From assembly GCF_947500995.1 (NCBI RefSeq), contig NZ_CANMUA010000008.1, positions 62,001 through 126,000 of the forward strand: a stretch of 64,000 nucleotides of DNA, written 5' to 3'. The stretch is from an uncultured Serinicoccus sp. Its GTDB lineage: Bacteria; Actinomycetota; Actinomycetes; Actinomycetales; Dermatophilaceae. This document shows, in pieces, positions 26,971 to 62,828 of this stretch. The first letter of the stretch is position 1. Each line of letters begins with the position of its first letter. The position numbers were made by a program, and so were the translations under genes. Under the pieces are notes generated by a model. The model ran no database searches, was not told the DNA's origin, and saw only the letters and a list, made by a program, of their open reading frames with translations.

Positions 26971-27438
26971 TCAGCCCCGCTCGGCGTCGATCTGCTCGGC
27001 CACGTCCTGCATGCGTTCGGTGAGGCGCGCCAGGTCGGCGAGCTCGGCGTCGCTCAGCCGGTCGAGCACCTGAGCCTTCGCCTGCAGGACCGGACCCTCC
27101 AGCGAGGCGAGGACCTCCTCGCCCTCCGGGGTGATCCGCAGCACCAGCCGCCGCCGGTCGGCCGGGTCGTGCTCGCGCCGCAACCACCCGCGCGCGACGA
27201 TGCGCTCGAGGATCCCGCTCGTGGTCGGGGTGGACACCCCCAGGTGCTCGGCCAGGGCCTGCCCGCTGAGATCAGGGTTGGCCCGGACCAGCACGAGCAC
27301 CTGGACCTGGCGCAGGGTCAGCTCGGCGGGGACGGGCCGGGGGTCGAGCCACCGCATGGCGACCGCGTGGAGCCGGGCCTCGCTGGCGCCGATCCGGCCC
27401 AGCAGCGCCGCACGTCCGTGCTGGTCGGGCCGATCCAT
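26971..27438 (-). CDS. MarR family transcriptional regulator
   Basis: 155 residues. Winged helix with LRQVQVLVLVRANPD, then SGQALAEHLGVSTPTTSGIL as recognition region, and REHDPADRRRLVLRIT as the wing with the canonical DxRxxR. Divergent from the RND efflux gene with 60 bases between, the standard layout of a drug-responsive repressor and its pump. ATG 27438 is preceded by AAGGAG at 9 bases. Ligand unknown. Confidence 0.92.
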   Translation of the reverse strand: MDRPDQHGRAALLGRIGASEARLHAVAMRWLDPRPVPAELTLRQVQVLVLVRANPDLSGQALAEHLGVSTPTTSGILERIVARGWLRREHDPADRRRLVLRITPEGEEVLASLEGPVLQAKAQVLDRLSDAELADLARLTERMQDVAEQIDAERG

Positions 27439-27483
27439 ACGTCGCACTCCTTCGTCGATTCGGTCGAGGGTAATGGTTCGCCT

Positions 27484-27489
27484 TAGGCT
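27484..27489 (+). promoter_or_regulatory. -10 box TAGGCT before RND gene
   Basis: TAGGCT ends 9 bases before ATG 27499; a near-leaderless transcript is expected. Confidence 0.45.
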
Positions 27490-27498
27490 AGGCATCCT

Positions 27499-30400
27499 AT
27501 GGCACGTCTCACCCTGTTCAGCGTCCGCAACCGGGCGCTCGTGGCGCTCGCCACCGTCTTCGGCATCCTGGCCGGCCTCTGGTCGGCCAGCAGCCTGCCG
27601 CGGGAGCTCTTCCCGTCGCTGCAGTTCCCGGTGCTGGTCGTCGCCACCAGCACGCCCGGGTCCAGCACCTCGGTCGTCGAGGAGCAGGTCACCGAGCCGG
27701 TCGAGGTCGCCGCGCAGGGGCTGAACAACGTCGTCGAGGTGTCCTCGACCAGCACCGACGGCTTCTCCTCGGTCGTCATCGAGCTGGACTACGGCACCGA
27801 CACGGGCGCGGCGCAGACCGACCTGCAGCGGGCCGTGCTGTCCCTGCCCGACCTGCCGGACTCGGCCTCCCCACAGATCTTCGCCGGCAACCTCGACGAC
27901 TTCCCCATCATCCAGCTCGCCGGAAGCGGCGGGGAGGACGCCCGCGACCTCGTCGACCGGCTCGAGCGGGTCGTCATCCCCGACATCGAGGACATCGACG
28001 GCGTCCGCTCGGTCACCCTCTCCGGGGTGGCCGACCGGGTGGTCACCGTGGACCTCGACGAGGAGGAGGCCGCCGACGCGGGGGTGACGCTGCAGACGGT
28101 GAGCCAGGTGCTGCAGGCCAACGGCGTCGTGCTCCCGGGAGGCTCCGTCCTGGACGGTGACACCGAGCTGCCGGTGCAGGTCGGTTCGCGGCTCACCTCC
28201 GCCGAGCAGATCGGCGCGCTCCCCATGCTCGGGCAGCAGGCCGTCGCCGCCCAGCAGGCGGCGGCGCAGACCCGGGCCCAGGCGCAGGAGGCCCAGGCCG
28301 CGGCGGACGAGGCCGCCCAGGCGGCCCAGGCCGCACCGCAGGACCCCGAGCTGGCCGCGGCCGCGGCGGCTGCCGCCGGCGCCGCGGAGCAGGCCACCGC
28401 CGCCGCCGAGGAGGCGGGCGCCGTCGAGGTCCCCCTGCTGCGCGACGTCGCGACGGTGACGCTGGAGGAGCGCGAGCCCACGGCATACACCCGCACCAAC
28501 GGGGAGCCCAGCGTCGGCCTCGCCATCACCAAGACGCCGGACGGCAACGCGGTGGAGATCTCCAGCGAGCTGGCGGCGCTGCAGGACCAGATCACCACCG
28601 ACCTCGACGGCGGCGAGCTGGTGACCATCTTCGACGGCGCGCCGTTCATCGAGAAGTCCATCGAGGACCTGGCCACCGAGGGCCTGCTCGGGCTCGGCTT
28701 CGCCATCCTCGTGGTGCTGCTCTTCCTGCTCTCGGTCCGCCTGACCCTGGTCACCGCGGTGTCGATCCCGCTGTCGCTGCTCATCGCGCTGCTGGGGCTG
28801 CAGGTGGCGGACTACAGCCTCAACATCCTCACCCTCGGCGCCCTCACCATCTCGGTCGGCCGCGTCGTCGACGACTCGATCGTCGTCATCGAAAACATCA
28901 AGCGCCACGTCGCGCGCGGCGAGGACCGGCGCACCGCCGTGGTCGAGGCGACCCGGGAGGTGGCCGGCGCGATCACCTCGGCGACCATCGCGACGGTCGC
29001 GGTCTTCCTGCCGCTGGGCTTCGTCGGCGGCCAGGTGGGCGAGCTGTTCCGGCCCTTCGCGGTCACCGTGACCCTGGCGATGCTGGCCTCGCTGCTCGTG
29101 GCGCTGACCATCATCCCGGTGCTGGGCTTCTGGTTCCTCGGCCGGAGCTCCGGCGTGGGCAAGCACGAGCCCGAGTCGGCCCTCACCGAGCACACCGACG
29201 AGCCGGACCGGATGCAGCGGACCTACCTGCCGGTGCTGCGGAACGCCCTCGGCCGGCCCTGGCTCACCGTGGGCCTGGCCGTGCTCCTGCTGGGCGGCAC
29301 CGGGTATGCCGCGACCCTGCTCAAGACCGACTTCATCGGGGGCACCGGGGAGAACACCCTGCAGGGCACGCTCACCATGCCGACGGGCACCACGCTCGAC
29401 GACACCGACGAGCAGGCCACCGAGGTCGAGGCGTGGCTCGCCGACCAGGACGAGGTCGTGACCTACCAGGTCACCGCTGGCAGCCCCGGCGGGATCGAGG
29501 CGGTCTTCCTCGGCAGCGGGGCCAACTCCGCGACGTTCGCCGTGACCTTGGACGACGGCGTGGACGGTGAGGCCTTCGGCGAGGAGCTGACCACCTCCGT
29601 CGACCTGCCCGAGGGCGCCACCTTCACCGCGCAGGCCGGCCAGCAGGGTGGGCCCACGACCGCCGGGCTGGAGGTGCAGGTGCAGGGCCAGGACCTCGAC
29701 CAGCTCGACGCGGCGGCCCAGGACGTCGTCGCGCTCATGGAGGAGGCCGGTGCGCTGGACGTCACCAACAACCTCACCGACACCGTGCCGGCCCTGCAGG
29801 TCGAGGTGGACCGCGAGGCCGCCGCGGCGGCCGGGCTGGCCGAGGCCCAGCTGGGCCAGACGATCCAGGCGGCCACCGACGGCGCGGTCGTCGGGCAGGT
29901 GGAGATCGACGCCACCCAGGTGGACGTCGTCGTGAGCGAGGGCTCGGCCGACGACGTCGCCGCCCTGCGGGACCTGGAGGTCGGCTCCGACCCCGACGGC
30001 GACCCCGTCGCCCTCGGCGAGGTGGCCGAGCTGCGCACGGTCGACGAGGCGGTCAGCATCACCCGGGTCGACGGGCTGCGCGCCGCCACGGTCAGCGGAC
30101 GCTCCGCGACCGACGACCTCGGGGCGCTCACCGCCGACCTGCAGCAGCGCCTCGACGACCTGGAGACCCCGGAGGGCGTCGAGGTGACGCTGGGCGGTGT
30201 GAGCTCGGACCAGCAGGACGCCTTCGCGGCGCTCGGCCTGGCCCTGCTCGCGGCCATCGCCATCGTCTACCTCGTCATGGTCGCGACCTTCAACTCGCTG
30301 GTCCAGCCGCTCATCCTGCTCGTGTCGGTGCCCTTCGCGGCGACCGGCTCGATCGCGCTGCTGCTGCTCACCGACACCGCGCTGGACGTCGCCTCGATGG

Positions 30401-30765
30401 TCGGCCTGCTCATGCTCATCGGCATCGTCGTCACCAACGCGATCGTGCTCATCGACCTGGTCAACCAGTACCGCGCCCGCGGTCTGGGCCGCACCGAGGC
30501 CGTGCTCGAGGGGGCGCGGCACCGGTTCCGGCCGATCGTCATGACCGCGCTGGCGACCATCCTGGCGCTCACCCCGATGGCCTTCGCCGTCACCGGAGGC
30601 GGGGCGTTCATCTCCCAGCCGCTGGCCATCGTCGTCATCGGCGGGCTCATCAGCTCGACCGCGCTGACGCTCATCCTGGTGCCGGTGCTCTACGAGCTGG
30701 TCGGCCGGGGAGCCACCTGGGCGGGTGGCCTGCGGTCCCGTCGCGAGGAGCGCCAGGCCGCCTGA
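27499..30765 (+). CDS. RND family efflux transporter (HAE1/AcrB-like)
   Basis: 1088 residues. Two blocks of six membrane helices with large extracytoplasmic loops. The TM4 motif GRVVDDSIVVIENIKRHV near 453 carries the proton-relay Asp pair, and LPRELFPSLQFP follows TM1 as in HAE1 pumps. The first porter loop holds an unusual Ala/Gln-rich segment (about 245-310), probably a coiled coil. No membrane-fusion protein or TolC is adjacent, as expected in a Gram-positive. It probably exports drugs or lipids under the divergent MarR. Confidence 0.93.
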   Translation: MARLTLFSVRNRALVALATVFGILAGLWSASSLPRELFPSLQFPVLVVATSTPGSSTSVVEEQVTEPVEVAAQGLNNVVEVSSTSTDGFSSVVIELDYGTDTGAAQTDLQRAVLSLPDLPDSASPQIFAGNLDDFPIIQLAGSGGEDARDLVDRLERVVIPDIEDIDGVRSVTLSGVADRVVTVDLDEEEAADAGVTLQTVSQVLQANGVVLPGGSVLDGDTELPVQVGSRLTSAEQIGALPMLGQQAVAAQQAAAQTRAQAQEAQAAADEAAQAAQAAPQDPELAAAAAAAAGAAEQATAAAEEAGAVEVPLLRDVATVTLEEREPTAYTRTNGEPSVGLAITKTPDGNAVEISSELAALQDQITTDLDGGELVTIFDGAPFIEKSIEDLATEGLLGLGFAILVVLLFLLSVRLTLVTAVSIPLSLLIALLGLQVADYSLNILTLGALTISVGRVVDDSIVVIENIKRHVARGEDRRTAVVEATREVAGAITSATIATVAVFLPLGFVGGQVGELFRPFAVTVTLAMLASLLVALTIIPVLGFWFLGRSSGVGKHEPESALTEHTDEPDRMQRTYLPVLRNALGRPWLTVGLAVLLLGGTGYAATLLKTDFIGGTGENTLQGTLTMPTGTTLDDTDEQATEVEAWLADQDEVVTYQVTAGSPGGIEAVFLGSGANSATFAVTLDDGVDGEAFGEELTTSVDLPEGATFTAQAGQQGGPTTAGLEVQVQGQDLDQLDAAAQDVVALMEEAGALDVTNNLTDTVPALQVEVDREAAAAAGLAEAQLGQTIQAATDGAVVGQVEIDATQVDVVVSEGSADDVAALRDLEVGSDPDGDPVALGEVAELRTVDEAVSITRVDGLRAATVSGRSATDDLGALTADLQQRLDDLETPEGVEVTLGGVSSDQQDAFAALGLALLAAIAIVYLVMVATFNSLVQPLILLVSVPFAATGSIALLLLTDTALDVASMVGLLMLIGIVVTNAIVLIDLVNQYRARGLGRTEAVLEGARHRFRPIVMTALATILALTPMAFAVTGGGAFISQPLAIVVIGGLISSTALTLILVPVLYELVGRGATWAGGLRSRREERQAA

Positions 30766-30796: not shown

Positions 30797-33412
30797 TCAG
30801 TCGGTGAGGCGAGGGCTGCGGTAGGGCAGGGCGTCGGGGCGGCCGCAGCGCCACACGGCATACACCGCGGCGGGGTGTCCGAGCTCCCCCGTGACGTGGG
30901 CGTCGACCGCGGCCGCGGCGTGGGGCTCGTCCAGCAGCTCGCTGAGCGGGTGCGCGGACCAGCCGCCACGCTCCCCGGCCAGCCAGCAGGCCAGGAGCGA
31001 CCCGCCGAGCGGGCCGAGCTCGTCCGGCGTGAGGCCCGGTGCGGCCCACAGGGCGAGAACCGCGCCGCGTGGCCGCAGCGCGCTGGTCCGCGCCACCCAC
31101 CGGTCGAGACGGCTGGTCTCCAGCGCCCGACGCAGGGGCCCGGCCGAGGTGAGCAGCGCGAGACCGCGCGCCTCCGCCGCGGAGAGCCCGAGCGCCGTCG
31201 CGCTGAGACCGTCGAGGTCGCGGCGGGGGTGGCGTGGCGACAGCCGCAACCACTGCGCCAGCTCCGACGCCGCGGGCCCGGTGAGGGTGTGCGCGGTCGC
31301 GCGCGGGAGCAGCTCGTCGACGAGGTCGTCCGGCAGCTCCAGCAGGCCGCAACCCTCCCCGAGCCCGGCGGTGCGGGCGATCTCGGCGACCTGGCACGGG
31401 TTCGGCCGCTGCGGGTATGCCGTGCGGACCGTCGCCCGCGCGTGCAGCTCCGCGACGGACCAGGGCGGCGGCGCCTGCCGGGCGCCCGCGGCCGCCGGCG
31501 ACGGACGGCGCTGCGGGGGCTGCGACCGGGTCTCGGGGCCGGGGAGGGCACGGAGCGTGACCACCGCGGCCCGGCGGGCGTCGACGTCCACCCCCCAGGT
31601 GACGTCCGCCTCCAGCCCGAGGTCGGCCGCCACCACCTCCAGGCTGAGCGCGAGGGCCCCGAGCGAGAGCAGGAGGTCGCGCCGGCCGGCGTCGGCGACG
31701 GGCAGCTCGCGGTCGGCGTGCCACCCGAGCAGCAGCCTGTCCTCGTCCAGCACCCGCACGTCCCACGGCTGGGTGTTGTGCGCGCTGGGGGCGCGGCCCC
31801 AGTCGTGGGCGCGGGCCAGCAGCCGCACCGCCGGGCCGCGCTCCTTGACGGCCGAGGTCGGGGCCGCGACCGTGCGCTGGTCACCACTCGGGGTCCCGCC
31901 GACGTGCACCGCGCGGGTGTAGAAGCACGTGCCGTGCAGCGGCCGCCCGCCCATGGCGACGAACTGTGCCTGCGACCCCGTGTTGTCGTCCTCGACGAAG
32001 GTGACCCGGAGCGCGTCATACCCTCCGGCCTGCAGACCCTGCAGCAGCTCTCGCGACAGGTGGCGCATGAGCCCCTGCCCGCGCGCCCCGGGCACGGTGC
32101 CCTTGATGATGAGGACGGCCTCGCGCCGGTAGCGGCGCCGGCTGGCGAGGAGCCGCACGGTGTCGACCGGCCCGAGCCGCCCCCCGGTGGAGCGGACGAA
32201 GTCGGTGAGGTCGGGCACCACCAGCACGAAGGCCACCGGCTCCCCGCCGCGCTCCAGCCAGAGCAGCAGGCGCTCGTCGAGCAGGTGCGCGAGACCGTCG
32301 GTGGCAGCGGCCAGCTCGTCGGCCTCGATCCGGGTGAAGTAGCCGAGCTCGGCGAAGGAGGCGTTGAGCATCTGCCGCAGGACCGGCAGCTGCTCATCCA
32401 GCCGGCGTCGGTCGGCGTGCCGCAGCACGACGCCCTCCGGGAGCGGGTCGTCGCCGAAGAGGGCCGTCGGGTCGAGCGAGCCCAGGTCGGGGCAGATCCA
32501 GGTGGACCCCGTCCAGACCCGCTCGAAGCCGGCCGCCTCCCAGTCCCGGACGTAGTGCGGCGGGCTCCACGGCCCGTCGAGGAAGCCCGGCTCCTCCCAC
32601 CCCGACGTCACCACCCCGCCGACCTGGTTCGGCAGCAGCGACACCGGGCCCAGGAGCCGCGTGCGCCCGCGCTGCCGCGCCAGGGCCTCGGCGTACTCCA
32701 CCATCGCGACCAGGGCCGCCTCCCCGGCGAACTCGGTGGCCCCCATGAGCAGGGTGCGCTCGCCGAGCTTGTGGTCCATCCGGTCGTCGGTGTGCAGCGT
32801 CGTGCGGCCGTGGACGATGCCCCACGGGTCGCGCACGACGTAGAGCTGGACCGCCCCGTGCGCGTGGTGCGGCCCGCTGCCGGTCCACCAGGAGCGGACG
32901 GTGCTGTGCCACAACGGCACCCCGTGGGTCTCGCGCCGCGTCCCCCACGGCGGCACCCGCAGGACGTCGCGCAGGTCGGCCCGGGTGCGGACCGGCTCGA
33001 CCCGCAGGCCCGAGCCCCTGCCGGAGCGCTCCCGCACCACCGGGGGCCCGACCTCCTCGCGGCCCACCGGGGTGAAGCGCTCCACGTGGGCCATCCGCCC
33101 GTCCTCGGCCCGCCACACCCCGTTGCTGTAGCCGTCCGGATCCGCCTCGTGCACCTGGACCACGACCCCGCCCTCATCCTCCACCCGCCGGCGCGCGTCC
33201 GCGCCGGCGGCGGCGTCGGCATACCAGGCGATGACACCCGTGCGACGCACCCCGACGCGCAGCCACTCGCGCCGCACCGGGCCGGGCCCCTCCAGCGCGC
33301 GGGTGACCGAGCGCAGCCACGCGCCCGAGGCGCGCCCCTGCTCCGGCTCCACGGTGAGCATCACCGTGGCCCTGGCCAGCGGCGGTGCGGCGGAGAAGTC
33401 ACGCGTGCGCAC
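30797..33412 (-). CDS. Fusion of YghO-like acyltransferase and nitroreductase-like domain
   Basis: 871 residues. About 1-125 is an unrecognised domain. About 130-520 resembles YghO-type GNAT acyltransferases: GPVSLLPNQ then WSPPHYVRDWEAAGF, with a second acyl-CoA-binding-like segment KGTVPGARGQGLMRHL near 475. About 545-871 resembles the FMN nitroreductase/Acg family, with SAHNTQPWDVRV at the flavin site; the family is often divergent, so activity is unproven. GTG start; the first 14 bases overlap the upstream gene, so translation is coupled. Third gene of the operon with the PaaK-like ligase. A pathway that activates, transfers and reduces an acyl group is possible, but substrate and product are unknown. 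Confidence 0.7.
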   Translation of the reverse strand: MRTRDFSAAPPLARATVMLTVEPEQGRASGAWLRSVTRALEGPGPVRREWLRVGVRRTGVIAWYADAAAGADARRRVEDEGGVVVQVHEADPDGYSNGVWRAEDGRMAHVERFTPVGREEVGPPVVRERSGRGSGLRVEPVRTRADLRDVLRVPPWGTRRETHGVPLWHSTVRSWWTGSGPHHAHGAVQLYVVRDPWGIVHGRTTLHTDDRMDHKLGERTLLMGATEFAGEAALVAMVEYAEALARQRGRTRLLGPVSLLPNQVGGVVTSGWEEPGFLDGPWSPPHYVRDWEAAGFERVWTGSTWICPDLGSLDPTALFGDDPLPEGVVLRHADRRRLDEQLPVLRQMLNASFAELGYFTRIEADELAAATDGLAHLLDERLLLWLERGGEPVAFVLVVPDLTDFVRSTGGRLGPVDTVRLLASRRRYRREAVLIIKGTVPGARGQGLMRHLSRELLQGLQAGGYDALRVTFVEDDNTGSQAQFVAMGGRPLHGTCFYTRAVHVGGTPSGDQRTVAAPTSAVKERGPAVRLLARAHDWGRAPSAHNTQPWDVRVLDEDRLLLGWHADRELPVADAGRRDLLLSLGALALSLEVVAADLGLEADVTWGVDVDARRAAVVTLRALPGPETRSQPPQRRPSPAAAGARQAPPPWSVAELHARATVRTAYPQRPNPCQVAEIARTAGLGEGCGLLELPDDLVDELLPRATAHTLTGPAASELAQWLRLSPRHPRRDLDGLSATALGLSAAEARGLALLTSAGPLRRALETSRLDRWVARTSALRPRGAVLALWAAPGLTPDELGPLGGSLLACWLAGERGGWSAHPLSELLDEPHAAAAVDAHVTGELGHPAAVYAVWRCGRPDALPYRSPRLTD

Positions 33413-33743
33413 GACGCCCCTCCTCCTCGACCGGCGCGCCCGTCACGGGCCGCTCGTAGACCCGGATGTAGCCGCCGGTCGCGTGCTGCGTACCGTCGGT
33501 GACCCACTGCATGAGCTCGCGGTGCACCCCGCTGCGGGCGAAGCGCAGGAGGTCCTCGCGGGTGGAGAAGTAGCCCACGGTGCCGAGGGTGAACGGCGGG
33601 TCGAGGTAGACCTGGTGGTGCACGTAGCCCGGCATCCGGCGCATCTGGTCGACCATCGCCCGCCAGCGCGGCGCCAGACGCACCCAGGCCAGCGGGGAGG
33701 TGTAGCGCGTCGCGCCGACGAAGACCGCCCCAGCGCCCTCCAT
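33399..33743 (-). CDS. Small dimeric alpha/beta-barrel-like protein, function unknown
   Basis: 114 residues. VFVGATRYTSPLAWVRLAP, then MPGYVHHQVYLDPPFTLGTVGYFSTREDLLRFARSG-like pattern, is typical of ABM/spheroidene-monooxygenase-like ferredoxin folds. Such proteins can be cofactor-free monooxygenases, haem proteins or scaffolds. Its ATG shares one base with the ligase stop (TGATG), and its own stop overlaps the next gene start, so the three genes form one coupled unit. Confidence 0.7.
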   Translation of the reverse strand: MEGAGAVFVGATRYTSPLAWVRLAPRWRAMVDQMRRMPGYVHHQVYLDPPFTLGTVGYFSTREDLLRFARSGVHRELMQWVTDGTQHATGGYIRVYERPVTGAPVEEEGRRAHA

Positions 33744-35338
33744 CAGCCCGCGGCACCCGGACGCAGGTAGACGCGCTTGAGCGTGGTGGGCGTCGCGGCG
33801 AACGGCCCGGTGCCGGCGTCGTGCACCCGCACCTCGATGTCGTCGCTGCGCTCGCTCTCCTCCAGCGACTGCGCGAAGTCGCGGCTCGTCCGGGCGAGGT
33901 AGTCGACGACGCCCTCGCGCACACCATCGGCGAGCGCGGTCCGCTCAGCCGGCTCGAGCTGCACGTCCTCGCGCAGCTCGAGGTGGATCGTCGGCTGCTG
34001 GCGGGTCGCGTCCTGCTCGACGTCCTCGAGGGTCAGCGTGAACGAGCCGATCTGGGCGGCCCGCCGCGGGTCGGTGTAGAGGCCGTTCTCCACGTCCTGC
34101 GGGTAGATGTTGGCGCCCATGAAGGAGATCGTGGCGTCGGCCCGGCCAAAGAGCAGCAGCAGCGGCAGCTTCATCCTCTGCTTGGCGAAGGCCTCGCGGG
34201 CCGGCCCCTGCCACTCCGGCTGGCTGCGCAGCACCGCCGCGAGGTCGTGCCAGTCCATGAGCCGGGCCTCGTCACCGATGTTGTAGCGCAGCTTGGGCGA
34301 GAGCACCGCGGTCGAGGTCAGCGTGCAGAGCAGCTCGCCCTCGGGGGTGGTCTCGAGGTAGGTCTCCAGGGGGTTGTACTGGAAGATCATCGGGGTCCGG
34401 GTCTCGCCCGGGCCGAGCACCGCCTCGCGCAGGTCGTGGTCCTCCAGCAGCGCACGCCGCAGCCACACCGTGAGGTCGGTCTCGCCGCCGATCCCGATGG
34501 TGAGGTCGGAGGCACCGTAGCCGGAGCGGACGGTGAGGAAGCGCTCCTCGCAGTAGTCGCGCAGCGCCTCGGTCATCCCCTCACCGCCGACCAGGCCGTG
34601 CATCCGCCAGGCCGGCCAGTCCCAGCCCTCGGCGTCCAGCCGGTCGCGCAGGTCCTTGAGGAAGGGCGGGTAGGCCGAGACCAGGTAGGTGAAGCCCGGC
34701 CCGAAGTGGCGCATCGTGTCGACGATCTTGTCCAGGTCGGGGCCGGTGTTCTTGACCATGGCGATCTTGGCCATGGCGATGCCGGTGTTGGTGCCGGTGG
34801 CCCACGCCCCCATGGAGTAGGCGTTGATGACGAAGAGCCGCTCCTCGTCGCGCATCATCAGCGCGGTGAAGCCGGCGACGTTGCGGTGGATGTCGGCCAG
34901 CTCGTCGCGGCCGCGCACCCAGTTGAAAGGGGTGCCGGAGCTGCCCGAGCTCTCGTCCACGAGCGTCCCGCGCAGCTCGAGGCGACCGGAGCGCGTGCGG
35001 GAGGTCTCGTCATACCGCTGGACGTAGCTCGCCTTGTCGGTGGGCGGGTAGTTCTCCAGGTCCCACCAGCGGAAGCGCCAGTCGTGCTCCGCGAGGTGCT
35101 GACGGTATGCCGGGACGTGCAACGAGCCGAGCTGGCAGGTCATCCAGGCGTGCAGCCGGGCGAAGTCGCCCATCCACGGCTGGTAGTGCGTCGCGGTGAG
35201 CCGCCAGGTCGCCGGGTGCACCTTGTAGAGGCTGTACGTCGTGCTCAGCGCCCGGGTCCCCGCCCGGAGCGCACCCCGGCGCGCCACCGTCAGCGGTGTG
35301 CTCGTCCAGACCGACTCCCCCAGGTCTCTCCATCCCAT
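33743..35338 (-). CDS. Adenylate-forming enzyme, PaaK/F390 synthetase-like
   Basis: 531 residues. Core motifs of the ANL superfamily are readable: ESSGSSGTPFNWV near 130 (phosphate loop), RSGYGASDLTIGIG near 275, YNIGDEA near 355, and FMGANIYPQDVE near 415 resembling the PaaK GVNIFP segment. A C-terminal lysine lies in TPTTLKRVYLR. It should activate a carboxylic acid with ATP as acyl-AMP, possibly then acyl-CoA. The acid is unknown; no phenylacetate catabolic genes are near. First gene of a coupled three-gene operon. A -10 box TAGAGT is 6 bases upstream of the ATG. Confidence 0.8.
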   Translation of the reverse strand: MGWRDLGESVWTSTPLTVARRGALRAGTRALSTTYSLYKVHPATWRLTATHYQPWMGDFARLHAWMTCQLGSLHVPAYRQHLAEHDWRFRWWDLENYPPTDKASYVQRYDETSRTRSGRLELRGTLVDESSGSSGTPFNWVRGRDELADIHRNVAGFTALMMRDEERLFVINAYSMGAWATGTNTGIAMAKIAMVKNTGPDLDKIVDTMRHFGPGFTYLVSAYPPFLKDLRDRLDAEGWDWPAWRMHGLVGGEGMTEALRDYCEERFLTVRSGYGASDLTIGIGGETDLTVWLRRALLEDHDLREAVLGPGETRTPMIFQYNPLETYLETTPEGELLCTLTSTAVLSPKLRYNIGDEARLMDWHDLAAVLRSQPEWQGPAREAFAKQRMKLPLLLLFGRADATISFMGANIYPQDVENGLYTDPRRAAQIGSFTLTLEDVEQDATRQQPTIHLELREDVQLEPAERTALADGVREGVVDYLARTSRDFAQSLEESERSDDIEVRVHDAGTGPFAATPTTLKRVYLRPGAAG

Positions 35339-35392: not shown

Positions 35393-36760
35393 TCAGACCC
35401 AGCCGTCGGGGCCGGCCGAGCCTGCGGCGTACTCCTCCAGCGGCACCTCGTCCGCCTGCCAGGCGTCGAGGACCGGCTCGACGATCCGCCACAGCTCCTC
35501 CGCCTCGTCGCCGCGGATGGTCAGCAGCGGGTTGCCGTCGAGGATGGAGCCGAGGATCTCGCCGTAGGGCAGCATCCGGGCCTTGCCGAGCTCGGCGGAC
35601 AGCTCCTTCTGCTCCAGCTCGAAGGGGTCGCCCTCGGCGTTCATGGACAGGTCGAGCGAGACGCTGCCGGGCTTGAGCTCCAGCACGAGCCGGTCCGGGT
35701 CCGGGGTGTCGGTGAGCCCGTCGGGCACGTGCGCCGGCGCCCGGAAGGTCACGACCACCTGCTTGGAGGCGGTGCCCAGCGCCTTGCCGGAGCGCAGCAC
35801 GAAGGGCACCCCGGCCCAGCGGGCGTTGTCCAGCTGCACCGTCAGCTGGGCGAGCGTCTCGGTCTGGCGGGTCGGGTCGACACCCTCCTCGTCCGCGTAG
35901 TCGGGGACCGTGCGGTCGCCGAGCCGACCCGCGACGTACCTCGCCCGCCGGGACGCGGCGACCGGGTCGTGGCCCCACGGCTGGGTCGCCCGCAGCGCCT
36001 GCGCCTTGAGGCCGCGGATCTCCTCGGCGTGCATCGTCGCGGGGGCCTCCATCGCGAAGAAGGCGAGGACCTCCAGCAGGTGGCTCTGGATCATGTCCAT
36101 GAGCGCGCCCGCGTGGTCGTAGTAGCCGGCCCGCCCCTCCAGCGCCAGCGTCTCGTCGTAGCAGATGTCGACCCGCTCGATGTGCTCCGCGGACCAGATC
36201 GGCTGCAGCAGCCGGTTGGCGAAGCGGATGCCGATGAGGTTGAGGATGGTGTTGACGCCGAGGAAGTGGTCGATCCGGAAGATGTCGCCCTCGGGGACGA
36301 CCCGCAGCAGCTGTCGGTTGAGGGCGCGTGCCGACTCCAGGCTGTCGCCGAAGGGCTTCTCCAGGGCCAGTCGGGTGCCCTCGGGCACCGTGAGCTCCTC
36401 CAGCAGCGCGCACACCTTGATGGTGATCGCCGGCGGCAGGGCGAAGTAGAGCACGACCGGCTCGTCGACGGCGTCGAGCAGGGCCTGCAGCTGGTCCCGC
36501 TCCAGGAGGTCCGTCCGGAGGTAGGTCGCCGCGCTCACCACCGGCTCGGCGACGTCGTCGGGCACCTCGGCCTCGGCGAGGCTGTCGCGGACCCTGCCCC
36601 GCCAGTCCTCGTCGCTGAGCTCGAGCCGGTCGGCGCCCAGGACCCGCACCCTGCGGTCGGTCTCCTCGCGCAGCAGCGTCCCGAGCCCGGGCAGCAGCAG
36701 CCGCCGGGTCAGGTCACCGGAGGCTCCCAGGATGAGCAGCGTGGTGGTCTGGTCGGCCAT
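35393..36760 (-). CDS. zwf: Glucose-6-phosphate dehydrogenase paralogue
   Basis: 455 residues, slightly shorter than typical 480-510. GASGDLTRRLLLPGL is the NADP loop, EKPFG and YYDHAGALMDMIQSHLL (catalytic His) are present. The substrate segment reads RIDHFLGVNT, whereas the canonical form is RIDHYLGKE; the conserved Lys that contacts glucose-6-phosphate is absent. It may prefer another substrate or be a low-affinity paralogue. No gnd, tal or opcA partner lies next to it. ATG 36760 follows AGAAGG. Confidence 0.85.
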   Translation of the reverse strand: MADQTTTLLILGASGDLTRRLLLPGLGTLLREETDRRVRVLGADRLELSDEDWRGRVRDSLAEAEVPDDVAEPVVSAATYLRTDLLERDQLQALLDAVDEPVVLYFALPPAITIKVCALLEELTVPEGTRLALEKPFGDSLESARALNRQLLRVVPEGDIFRIDHFLGVNTILNLIGIRFANRLLQPIWSAEHIERVDICYDETLALEGRAGYYDHAGALMDMIQSHLLEVLAFFAMEAPATMHAEEIRGLKAQALRATQPWGHDPVAASRRARYVAGRLGDRTVPDYADEEGVDPTRQTETLAQLTVQLDNARWAGVPFVLRSGKALGTASKQVVVTFRAPAHVPDGLTDTPDPDRLVLELKPGSVSLDLSMNAEGDPFELEQKELSAELGKARMLPYGEILGSILDGNPLLTIRGDEAEELWRIVEPVLDAWQADEVPLEEYAAGSAGPDGWV

Positions 36761-61604: not shown

Positions 61605-62828
61605 TCAGTAGGTCGGCAGGGTCGGGTCGACCTGCTCGATCCACGCGAGGATCCCGCCGGTCATGACGCTGACGTCCCCGTGCCCGAGCCGCACCAGGTG
61701 GGCCGCCGCACGCTGGGCCCGCGGGCCCGCCTTGCAGTAGACGACCACCGGGCCGGGCGGCAGGTGGTGGTCGAGGTCCTCCCAGCTCAGGACCTCACCG
61801 ACCGGCACGAGCAGCGCCCCGGGGACGGTCCCGAGCTCGTGCTCGGCCGGCTCCCGCACGTCCAGCACCACGGGGGCCGCACCCGCCGTGCCGTCGCCCG
61901 TCGGGCAGGAGCCGATGACGTCGGGCCGGGTGGGAGCCTCACCACCACCGGCGGGAGCCGACGGGAGGCCTGCGCCGAGCATCCCGGCCACCTCCGCCGG
62001 GCCGACCTCGGGCAGCGGCACGACCGGCCGCAGCTGCTCGCGCTGCTCCGGCTGCACCACGGCCCCGACCGGACGCAGGGGTACCTCCCTGGTGCGCTGC
62101 GTCAGCGCGTCGATGAGCAGGATGCGACCGACCAGCGGCTCCCCGAAACCGCAGACCAGCTTGACCACCTCCGCCGCCATGATCGAGCCCACCTGGCCGA
62201 CCAGCGCCCCGAGCACCCCCGCCTCCGAGCAGCTGGGGACGTCCTCCGCGCGGGGTGGCACCGGGAAGAGGTCCCGCAGGGACACGGCGTCCTCGACGCC
62301 CGGCACGAAGGTCGACAGCTGGGCGTCGAAGCGCAGCACCGCGGCCCACACCAGGGGGACCCCCAGGGCGACGCAGGCGTCGGACACGGCATACCGGGTC
62401 GGGAAGTTGTCGGCACCGTCGAGCACGACGTCGTGCCCGCGCAGCAGCTCCTGCGCGTTGCCCGCGTCGATCCGGGTACGCCGCACGCTCACCGACACGT
62501 CCGGGTTCAGCCCGCGGACGAAGGCCTCGGCGGAGGCCCCCTTGGGGGTGCCCACGGCGTCGGCGCGGTGGATGACCTGCCGCTGGAGGTTGGTGACGTC
62601 CACGTCGTCGTCGTCGATCACCGTGAGGTGCCCGACGCCGGCGGCGGCCAGGTAGGCGAGCACCGGGCTGCCGAGCCCTCCGGCCCCCACCACGGCCACG
62701 CTGGCGTTCAGCAGGCGGCGCTGCGCGCTCATGCCCATGCCGGGCACCAGGAGGTGACGTGAGTAGCGGGACACCTGCTCGGGCGTCAGCGGCGGGCCGG
62801 GCTCGACCAACGGCGGCAGCGGGGTCAT
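61605..62828 (-). CDS. moeZ: MoeZ-like adenylyltransferase with rhodanese domain
   Basis: 407 residues. N-terminal E1-like domain: RYSRHLLVPGMG, AVVGAGGLGSPVLAYLA (ATP loop) near 50, DDDDVDVTNLQRQVIHR near 77. C-terminal rhodanese domain with active-site loop YCKAGPRAQ near 370. It adenylates the MoaD (or ThiS) C-terminus and supplies sulfur as persulfide. The CxxC zinc pair of E. coli MoeB is reduced to PSCSEAG, usual in MoeZ. ATG 62828 picked over an upstream low-complexity start. Confidence 0.92.
   Translation of the reverse strand: MTPLPPLVEPGPPLTPEQVSRYSRHLLVPGMGMSAQRRLLNASVAVVGAGGLGSPVLAYLAAAGVGHLTVIDDDDVDVTNLQRQVIHRADAVGTPKGASAEAFVRGLNPDVSVSVRRTRIDAGNAQELLRGHDVVLDGADNFPTRYAVSDACVALGVPLVWAAVLRFDAQLSTFVPGVEDAVSLRDLFPVPPRAEDVPSCSEAGVLGALVGQVGSIMAAEVVKLVCGFGEPLVGRILLIDALTQRTREVPLRPVGAVVQPEQREQLRPVVPLPEVGPAEVAGMLGAGLPSAPAGGGEAPTRPDVIGSCPTGDGTAGAAPVVLDVREPAEHELGTVPGALLVPVGEVLSWEDLDHHLPPGPVVVYCKAGPRAQRAAAHLVRLGHGDVSVMTGGILAWIEQVDPTLPTY

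Follow-up and report, generated by a model that had tools for sequence, protein, structure and literature searches.

Three overlapping Serinicoccus genes as a fused form of a conserved actinobacterial cassette that may make an N-acylated, flavin-oxidised metabolite

Three overlapping genes of an uncultured Serinicoccus sp. encode a PaaK-like ligase, a small barrel protein and a large fusion protein, which raises the question of what such a combination could produce. The genes lie in a window of 64,000 nucleotides, the whole stretch of DNA that was analysed, from a genome of 3.8 Mb. An earlier note on this DNA had read them as a chain of acid activation, acyl transfer and redox tailoring.

All three genes are on the minus strand (Table 1), and the overlaps of 1 and 14 bases described in the earlier note were confirmed. 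The GTG start of the fusion is supported because the family N-terminal motif MRTxDFS begins exactly there. The single leaderless promoter that had been proposed was not confirmed: a scan for sigma-70-type sites found none of that type, and the ligase start is preceded, 54 bases upstream, by the end of a same-strand G6PD gene (35393-36760). Because of this arrangement, co-transcription of the three genes with the G6PD gene is possible. Positions 26971-30765 of the window encode a MarR-type regulator together with one RND-type pump. The pump gene (27499-30765) contains a long Ala/Gln-rich insertion and converges with the fusion gene, the 3' ends being 31 bases apart. Both families recur in 6 of 21 sources examined, counting the window itself; no genes were obtained from 3 of the 21. 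An export role of the pump for the cassette is possible.

Table 1. Features of the cassette in the window
Feature	Position	Strand	Product	Basis
PaaK-like ligase gene	33743-35338	minus	531 aa, ATG start	ORF reading and profile matches
Small barrel gene	33399-33743	minus	114 aa, ATG start	PF13826 match
Fusion gene	30797-33412	minus	871 aa, GTG start	barrel copy, predicted tandem GNAT and predicted Acg-type flavin domain
Fusion aa 1-135, decayed second barrel copy	33008-33412	minus		end motifs, predicted fold
Fusion aa 136-505, predicted tandem GNAT	31898-33007	minus		YghO homology along its length
Fusion aa 526-871, predicted Acg-type flavin domain (nitroreductase superfamily)	30800-31837	minus		profile and fold match
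RAPSAHNTQPW motif	31763-31795	minus		common to Acg (2ymv) and cassette flavin enzymes

The ligase gave no match to Pfam in a single-sequence search. Its match to the PaaK model TIGR02155 (E = 8.2e-7, 27.9 bits) falls far short of the equivalog threshold, 646.3. In contrast, a profile of seven rows (7 of the 10 ligases of the first set, with L052, L053 and L054 left out) matched PaaK structures, with an E value of 4.4e-14 for 2y4o. In the same alignment, what we take to be the ANL motifs are kept or nearly so, namely the P-loop (ESSGSSGTP), Y-G-x-S-D/E (YGASD), the G-R-x-D hinge (GRxD...GANIYP) and the C-terminal Lys (K521). This is in agreement with the earlier description of the ligase motifs as intact. 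The protein is assigned, by motif and profile, as a predicted PaaK-like member of the ANL (adenylate-forming) superfamily, and its length exceeds that of the compared PaaK chains (436-443 aa) by about 90 residues. The closest named ligases belong to Serinicoccus, with 98% identity to that of S. chungangensis.

The small protein matched PF13826 (Monooxy_af470-like) with 27 bits against a gathering cut-off of 25, a family match that it shares with the af470-like/ABM monooxygenases. The same model was matched (E <= 0.01) by 21 of 33 aligned members of the barrel family. The whole fusion gave no match to PF13826. Its N-terminal domain, present as the earlier note had stated but called unrecognised there, was found to be a decayed second copy of the small barrel, as evidenced by end motifs and fold. 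This copy keeps the end motifs MRTRDFS and YSNGVWRAED and has lost both core His residues, while the small barrel of the window keeps the core with its two conserved His and is devoid of the N-terminal MRTxDFS and the C-terminal YxNG motifs. Residues 17-89 of the fusion are predicted to form a beta-alpha-beta-beta-alpha-beta fold (AlphaFold2, block pLDDT 73-91; the alignment used for folding excluded just six single-barrel rows and five barrel-GNAT fusions). In four genomes of the genus (G006, G014, G019 and G013), the region matching the fusion N-terminus is a separate protein, 61-64% identical to the small barrel itself.

The middle part of the fusion was compared with E. coli YghO through a profile of 26 relatives, a hand-picked subset, as are the 29 rows of the flavin profile and the 33 rows of the barrel alignment. 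The hhalign probability was 99.6 (E = 5.4e-25, 360 columns, 22% identity), and this part is assigned as a predicted tandem GNAT homologous to YghO over its whole length. A single-sequence search of the fusion against the PDB gave no match. A stand-alone relative from locus L072 was modelled with a pLDDT of 92.3 (AlphaFold2), and its fold matched the tandem GNATs 2wpw and 7q3a and mycothiol synthase 2c27; FemA and N-myristoyltransferases were among the lower-ranked matches. In the portion of PMC9386255 available, yghO is described as aca, an acyl-CoA N-acyltransferase gene required for dihydroceramide synthesis. The resemblance to this bacterial ceramide N-acyltransferase, aca/bCerS (CC_1154; E. 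coli yghO), lies in the GNAT. In contrast to aca/bCerS, the cassette is without spt, acpR, aasR and epi genes and links the GNAT to a ligase, a flavin enzyme and a barrel instead. Within the cassette none of spt, acpR and aasR was found, and the 10-kb flanks, compared by family and not by name, have no further family in common across many loci.

The C-terminal part of the fusion was assigned as a predicted Acg-type flavin domain of the nitroreductase superfamily. The profile of 29 relatives matched 2ymv with an E value of 1.3e-24, and 2ymv was also the top fold match of the whole-fusion AlphaFold2 model (pLDDT 83.1; pTM 0.49, so that the domain arrangement is not reliable). The score of the fusion with NF047509 (Acg family FMN oxidoreductase) was 92.8 bits, below the curated cut-off of 199, and all 29 relatives scanned matched this model at E <= 0.001. 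The domain scores best with the Acg/Rv3131 model and is nearer to Acg/Rv3131 than to Rv1355c. It shares with Acg (Rv2032; M. smegmatis 5246, PDB 2ymv) the predicted fold and the motif RAPSxHNTQPW; unlike Acg and Rv3131, it falls under the NCBIfam cut-off, is fused to a GNAT and a barrel, and is linked to a ligase. The structural models thus bore out the earlier division of the fusion, the predicted GNAT and nitroreductase parts displaying the tandem-GNAT and Acg folds and motifs.

In order to follow the gene combination beyond the window, a genome collection was scanned with the seven-row ligase alignment. The scan gave 367 relatives among 410 candidate stretches, and the best 80 of the 367 were read, all actinobacteria by title. 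The order ligase-barrel(-barrel)-GNAT-nitroreductase, on one strand and within about 6 kb, was found in 78 of these 80 loci. Within the genus, strong ligase matches (E 7e-59 or better) and fusion matches were found in the same 15 of 31 genomes; some ligase match occurred in 27 of the 31, most second matches being weak. The co-occurrence anticipated for homologues of the three genes was therefore observed, and the linkage is far beyond chance. The three genes are the local form of a conserved four-activity cassette of ligase, small barrel, tandem GNAT and Acg-type nitroreductase. Most junctions are 4-base overlaps (start codons chosen by script): barrel and GNAT overlap in this way in 42 of 59 cases, GNAT and nitroreductase in 49 of 58.

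At L111 and L136 (Streptacidiphilus) the GNAT is absent from the locus and present elsewhere in the genome (E ~1e-116). The lone GNAT of these two Streptacidiphilus genomes (L152, 9381-10547; L153, 8551-9717) adjoins bL9-like and MATE-like genes, labelled by eye from their first residues. At L112 and L141 the entire cassette sits after three genes sized like ssb-rpsR-rplI, a likeness of sizes only, and a MATE transporter lies beside L072 and L141.

The flanks of the 80 loci were less constant. The next family after those of the cassette was present at 15 of 80 loci, the three members displayed being from Brevibacterium. Some flank families turn up at a small number of loci from different genera, one of them at 11 loci (member L074_05 is an alpha/beta hydrolase). 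These are undercounts, since the ligase family itself was placed in 76 of the 80 loci by the same count. No transporter, carrier-protein or precursor gene was linked across lineages in the 10-kb flanks.

In a sample of the phylum, a ligase match was found in 16 of 296 genomes; five of these 16 matches, all weak, were left out of the locus reading. Among these 16, the full cassette is present in the window's own genome, in G259 and in G254. All four cassette genes are also present in G041, from another family of the order. G254 is a phylum member of 1.8 Mb and 35% GC with a complete four-gene cassette (L048, 4749-9033), suggesting horizontal transfer or great age. Five genomes (G147, G290, G195, G141 and G333) have only the ligase and a nitroreductase in the stretch read, with neighbours that share no common theme. 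In G127 and G133 the ligase was seen without other cassette genes nearby, and the locus of G278 is cut by the contig end. A search of the whole genome gave no GNAT match in any of the five ligase-nitroreductase genomes or in G127 (0 of 6). The ligases of these GNAT-less genomes are distant (35-41% identity).

Domain fusions are recurrent on the ligase tree. Among the 80 loci, four barrel-GNAT-nitroreductase, eight GNAT-nitroreductase and seven barrel-GNAT fusions were found, one of the eight being L070, near the window's clade; L134 was ambiguous. The tree has 80 rows (79 loci and the window), L134 and the five distant ligases having been left out. On this tree the GNAT-nitroreductase fusion needs 5 changes, 4 of them forced by well supported branches, and the barrel-GNAT fusion needs 2, gains or losses in either case. 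The three-gene layout of the window looks like a derived fusion of the four-activity cassette, because the genes are separate in the genus genomes G006, G013, G014 and G019.

The two barrel copies of the window have counterparts in many loci. Of 81 loci (the 80 and the window), a single complete barrel is present in 45 and a pair of copies in 35; the one other locus, L119, has a core copy only. This last state is probably an artefact of the ligase frame reading on into the region, and L119 was counted among the single-copy loci in the complementarity comparison. In 34 of the 35 two-copy loci, one copy carries both end motifs and the other carries neither and keeps the core. The pair jointly keeps the N motif, the second His and the C motif in 34 of 35, the exception being L091, which has no N motif. 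A simulation of independent motif loss, which ignores shared ancestry, gave a mean of 15.7 of 35 where 34 of 35 were seen. The split between the copies is not absolute. On a core score out of 21, end-motif copies reach 0-10, with one outlier at 16 (L140), and core copies 12-19. One or both core His are kept in 9 of 35 end-motif copies, both of them in the intermediates L073 and L140, and the first core His is missing in 6 of 35 core copies.

The order of the copies differs between lineages. The end-motif copy is first in 27 loci, with both copies in one open frame, and the core copy is first in 8 loci, as separate genes (the window, L067-L071, L073 and L140). Among the core copies sampled, each of the two lineages falls into a clade of its own with good support (8 rows, 99/98; 6 rows, 100/99), while the deep forks between these clades are weak. 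The opposite gene order and the separate clades, on which alone the independence of the splits rests, point to two independent duplications with complementary loss. A single ancient split of the barrel followed by rearrangement is less likely. This division into complementary copies sets the cassette barrel of the two lineages apart from other af470-like/ABM monooxygenases, and, as complementary halves, the small barrel and the N-terminal domain of the fusion probably form a heterodimer.

The nearest known parallel in composition is found in the acyl-oxazolone systems. As far as the accessible text of PMC10404671 goes, TyzA N-acylates, TyzC desaturates in an O2-dependent reaction, and TyzB cyclises in an ATP-dependent one. 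The available parts of PMC12856293 and PMC12479983 place the N-acyltransferase/ThiF/FDO trio in other bacteria as well, and the ThiF-FDO pair is presented as a fused or adjacent unit in oxz/tyz/trz in what could be consulted of PMC10404671 and PMC12856293. Like oxzAB, tyzABC and trzAS, the cassette combines in a compact cluster a putative N-acyltransferase, an ATP-dependent adenylating enzyme and a nitroreductase-superfamily flavin oxidase, and fused domains are seen in OxzB and TrzS as in the window's fusion. It would thus offer the same three chemistries, partly through different families, plus a barrel. Unlike these systems, it has an ANL/PaaK-like ligase instead of a ThiF adenylating cyclase, a YghO-type tandem GNAT instead of another N-acyltransferase type, and an additional af470-like barrel. 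A flavin-dependent oxidase of Acg type is adjacent, though it is nearer to subgroup B (Acg/Rv3131) than to the oxazolone subgroup A. No ThiF-type cyclase is adjacent or fused in the cassette; the only ThiF-family (PF00899) match in the window's genome is at 62076-62765 of the window, about 27 kb from the cassette, and is probably a housekeeping gene. Judged by ThiF, the cassette falls outside the oxazolone family, but by analogy it may work like a member.

From gene order, co-occurrence, fusions, homologies, predicted folds and the split barrel, we infer reactions, substrates, product and a complex as follows. The tandem GNAT would acylate an amine or amino acid. The carboxylate adenylated by the ANL ligase would most likely belong to the N-acyl product, leading to ring closure or further coupling; otherwise the ligase would provide the acyl donor. 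The Acg-type flavin enzyme would desaturate the product using O2, and the af470-like barrel would add oxygen or guide cyclisation. These activities probably form one complex, which in Serinicoccus would partly be a single polypeptide. The product is most likely an N-acylated, flavin-oxidised, lipid-like (fatty amide-type) compound. In the broad sense of an amide-lipid cassette this reading is reasonably probable. The narrower proposal, that an N-acyl (amide) metabolite is made by an oxz/tyz-like scheme with the PaaK-like ligase replacing ThiF, is advanced tentatively. The chain of acid activation, acyl transfer and redox tailoring of the earlier note fits the parts and is broadly supported as to its activities, less so as to the order of its steps.

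In favour of the oxz/tyz-like scheme, five distant genomes have the ligase-nitroreductase pair but neither GNAT nor barrel, in the manner of the ThiF-FDO pair of oxz/tyz/trz. Because of this occurrence, the ligase may act with the flavin enzyme and not as a supplier of the GNAT, suggesting that it works like a ThiF partner. The linkage, the mostly 4-bp junction overlaps, the recurrent fusions, the YghO-homologous GNAT, the Acg-group flavin domain and the remote position of the sole ThiF match are also counted in its favour. A further point for it comes from the available portion of PMC10404671, where members of the wider FDO subgroup are reported to desaturate N-acyl amino acids and most of the actinobacterial flavin oxidases in that subgroup to be located close to putative lipid genes. 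Against it, PaaK-type ligases normally yield CoA thioesters, no transporter, carrier-protein or precursor gene accompanies the cassette across lineages, and the distant ligases of the GNAT-less genomes may do something else. Moreover, in the available portion of PMC10404671 the branch holding Acg and Rv3131 (FDO-B), to which the flavin domain is closest, is stated not to be involved in oxazolone synthesis, and TyzA is described as nearest to AHL-synthase-type acyltransferases, in contrast to the tandem GNAT found here. A more far-reaching version appears rather unlikely: a pathway widespread in actinobacteria that would use an ANL ligase in place of ThiF to make lipids of dehydro-amino-acid or oxazolone-like type, and whose af470-like barrel would have duplicated and split twice, independently and in opposite order, into an obligate heterodimer.

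Nearly as likely as the oxz/tyz-like scheme, and doubtful in its own right, is a supply of acyl-CoA by the ligase to the GNAT, which would load a long-chain amine or amino-lipid in the manner of a ceramide synthase, the flavin enzyme and the barrel decorating the chain with no ring closure. This explanation keeps the step order of the earlier chain and agrees with the resemblance of the ligase to PaaK CoA ligases and with the homology of the GNAT to YghO/aca, whose pathway has a dedicated acyl-activating enzyme according to the available text of PMC9386255. It accounts less readily for the ligase-nitroreductase pair of the five distant genomes, which have no GNAT homologue (0 of 6 when G127, with a ligase and no nitroreductase seen nearby, is included), and the cassette itself holds no serine palmitoyltransferase or carrier protein. 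A catabolic or detoxifying cassette, in which an aromatic or xenobiotic acid would be activated, acylated and then reduced or oxidised for clearance, is improbable. PaaK-like ligases and nitroreductase-superfamily domains are typical of such functions, and the patchy distribution (15 of 31 genus genomes) would suit them, whereas no catabolic or uptake family recurs widely (the next family is at 15 of 80 loci), the flavin domain is Acg-like, and four activities kept and repeatedly fused suggest a fixed product. Least probable of all, and very unlikely, is the acylation of a protein or envelope polymer instead of a free small molecule: GNAT-fold enzymes also act on polymers, as the lower-ranked fold matches to FemA and N-myristoyltransferases recall, yet no conserved target gene lies beside the cassette, and the ligase and the flavin enzyme would have no obvious part.

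No published description of the cassette was found in the open-access literature searched. Within that literature, the findings point to a conserved and apparently undescribed metabolite pathway in Actinomycetota. They bring an Acg-type flavin enzyme, from a group described in PMC10404671 as of unknown function, together with a YghO-type acyltransferase in one testable pathway. The barrel, in turn, would be a case from nature in which an enzyme has been divided into complementary halves, apparently on more than one occasion.
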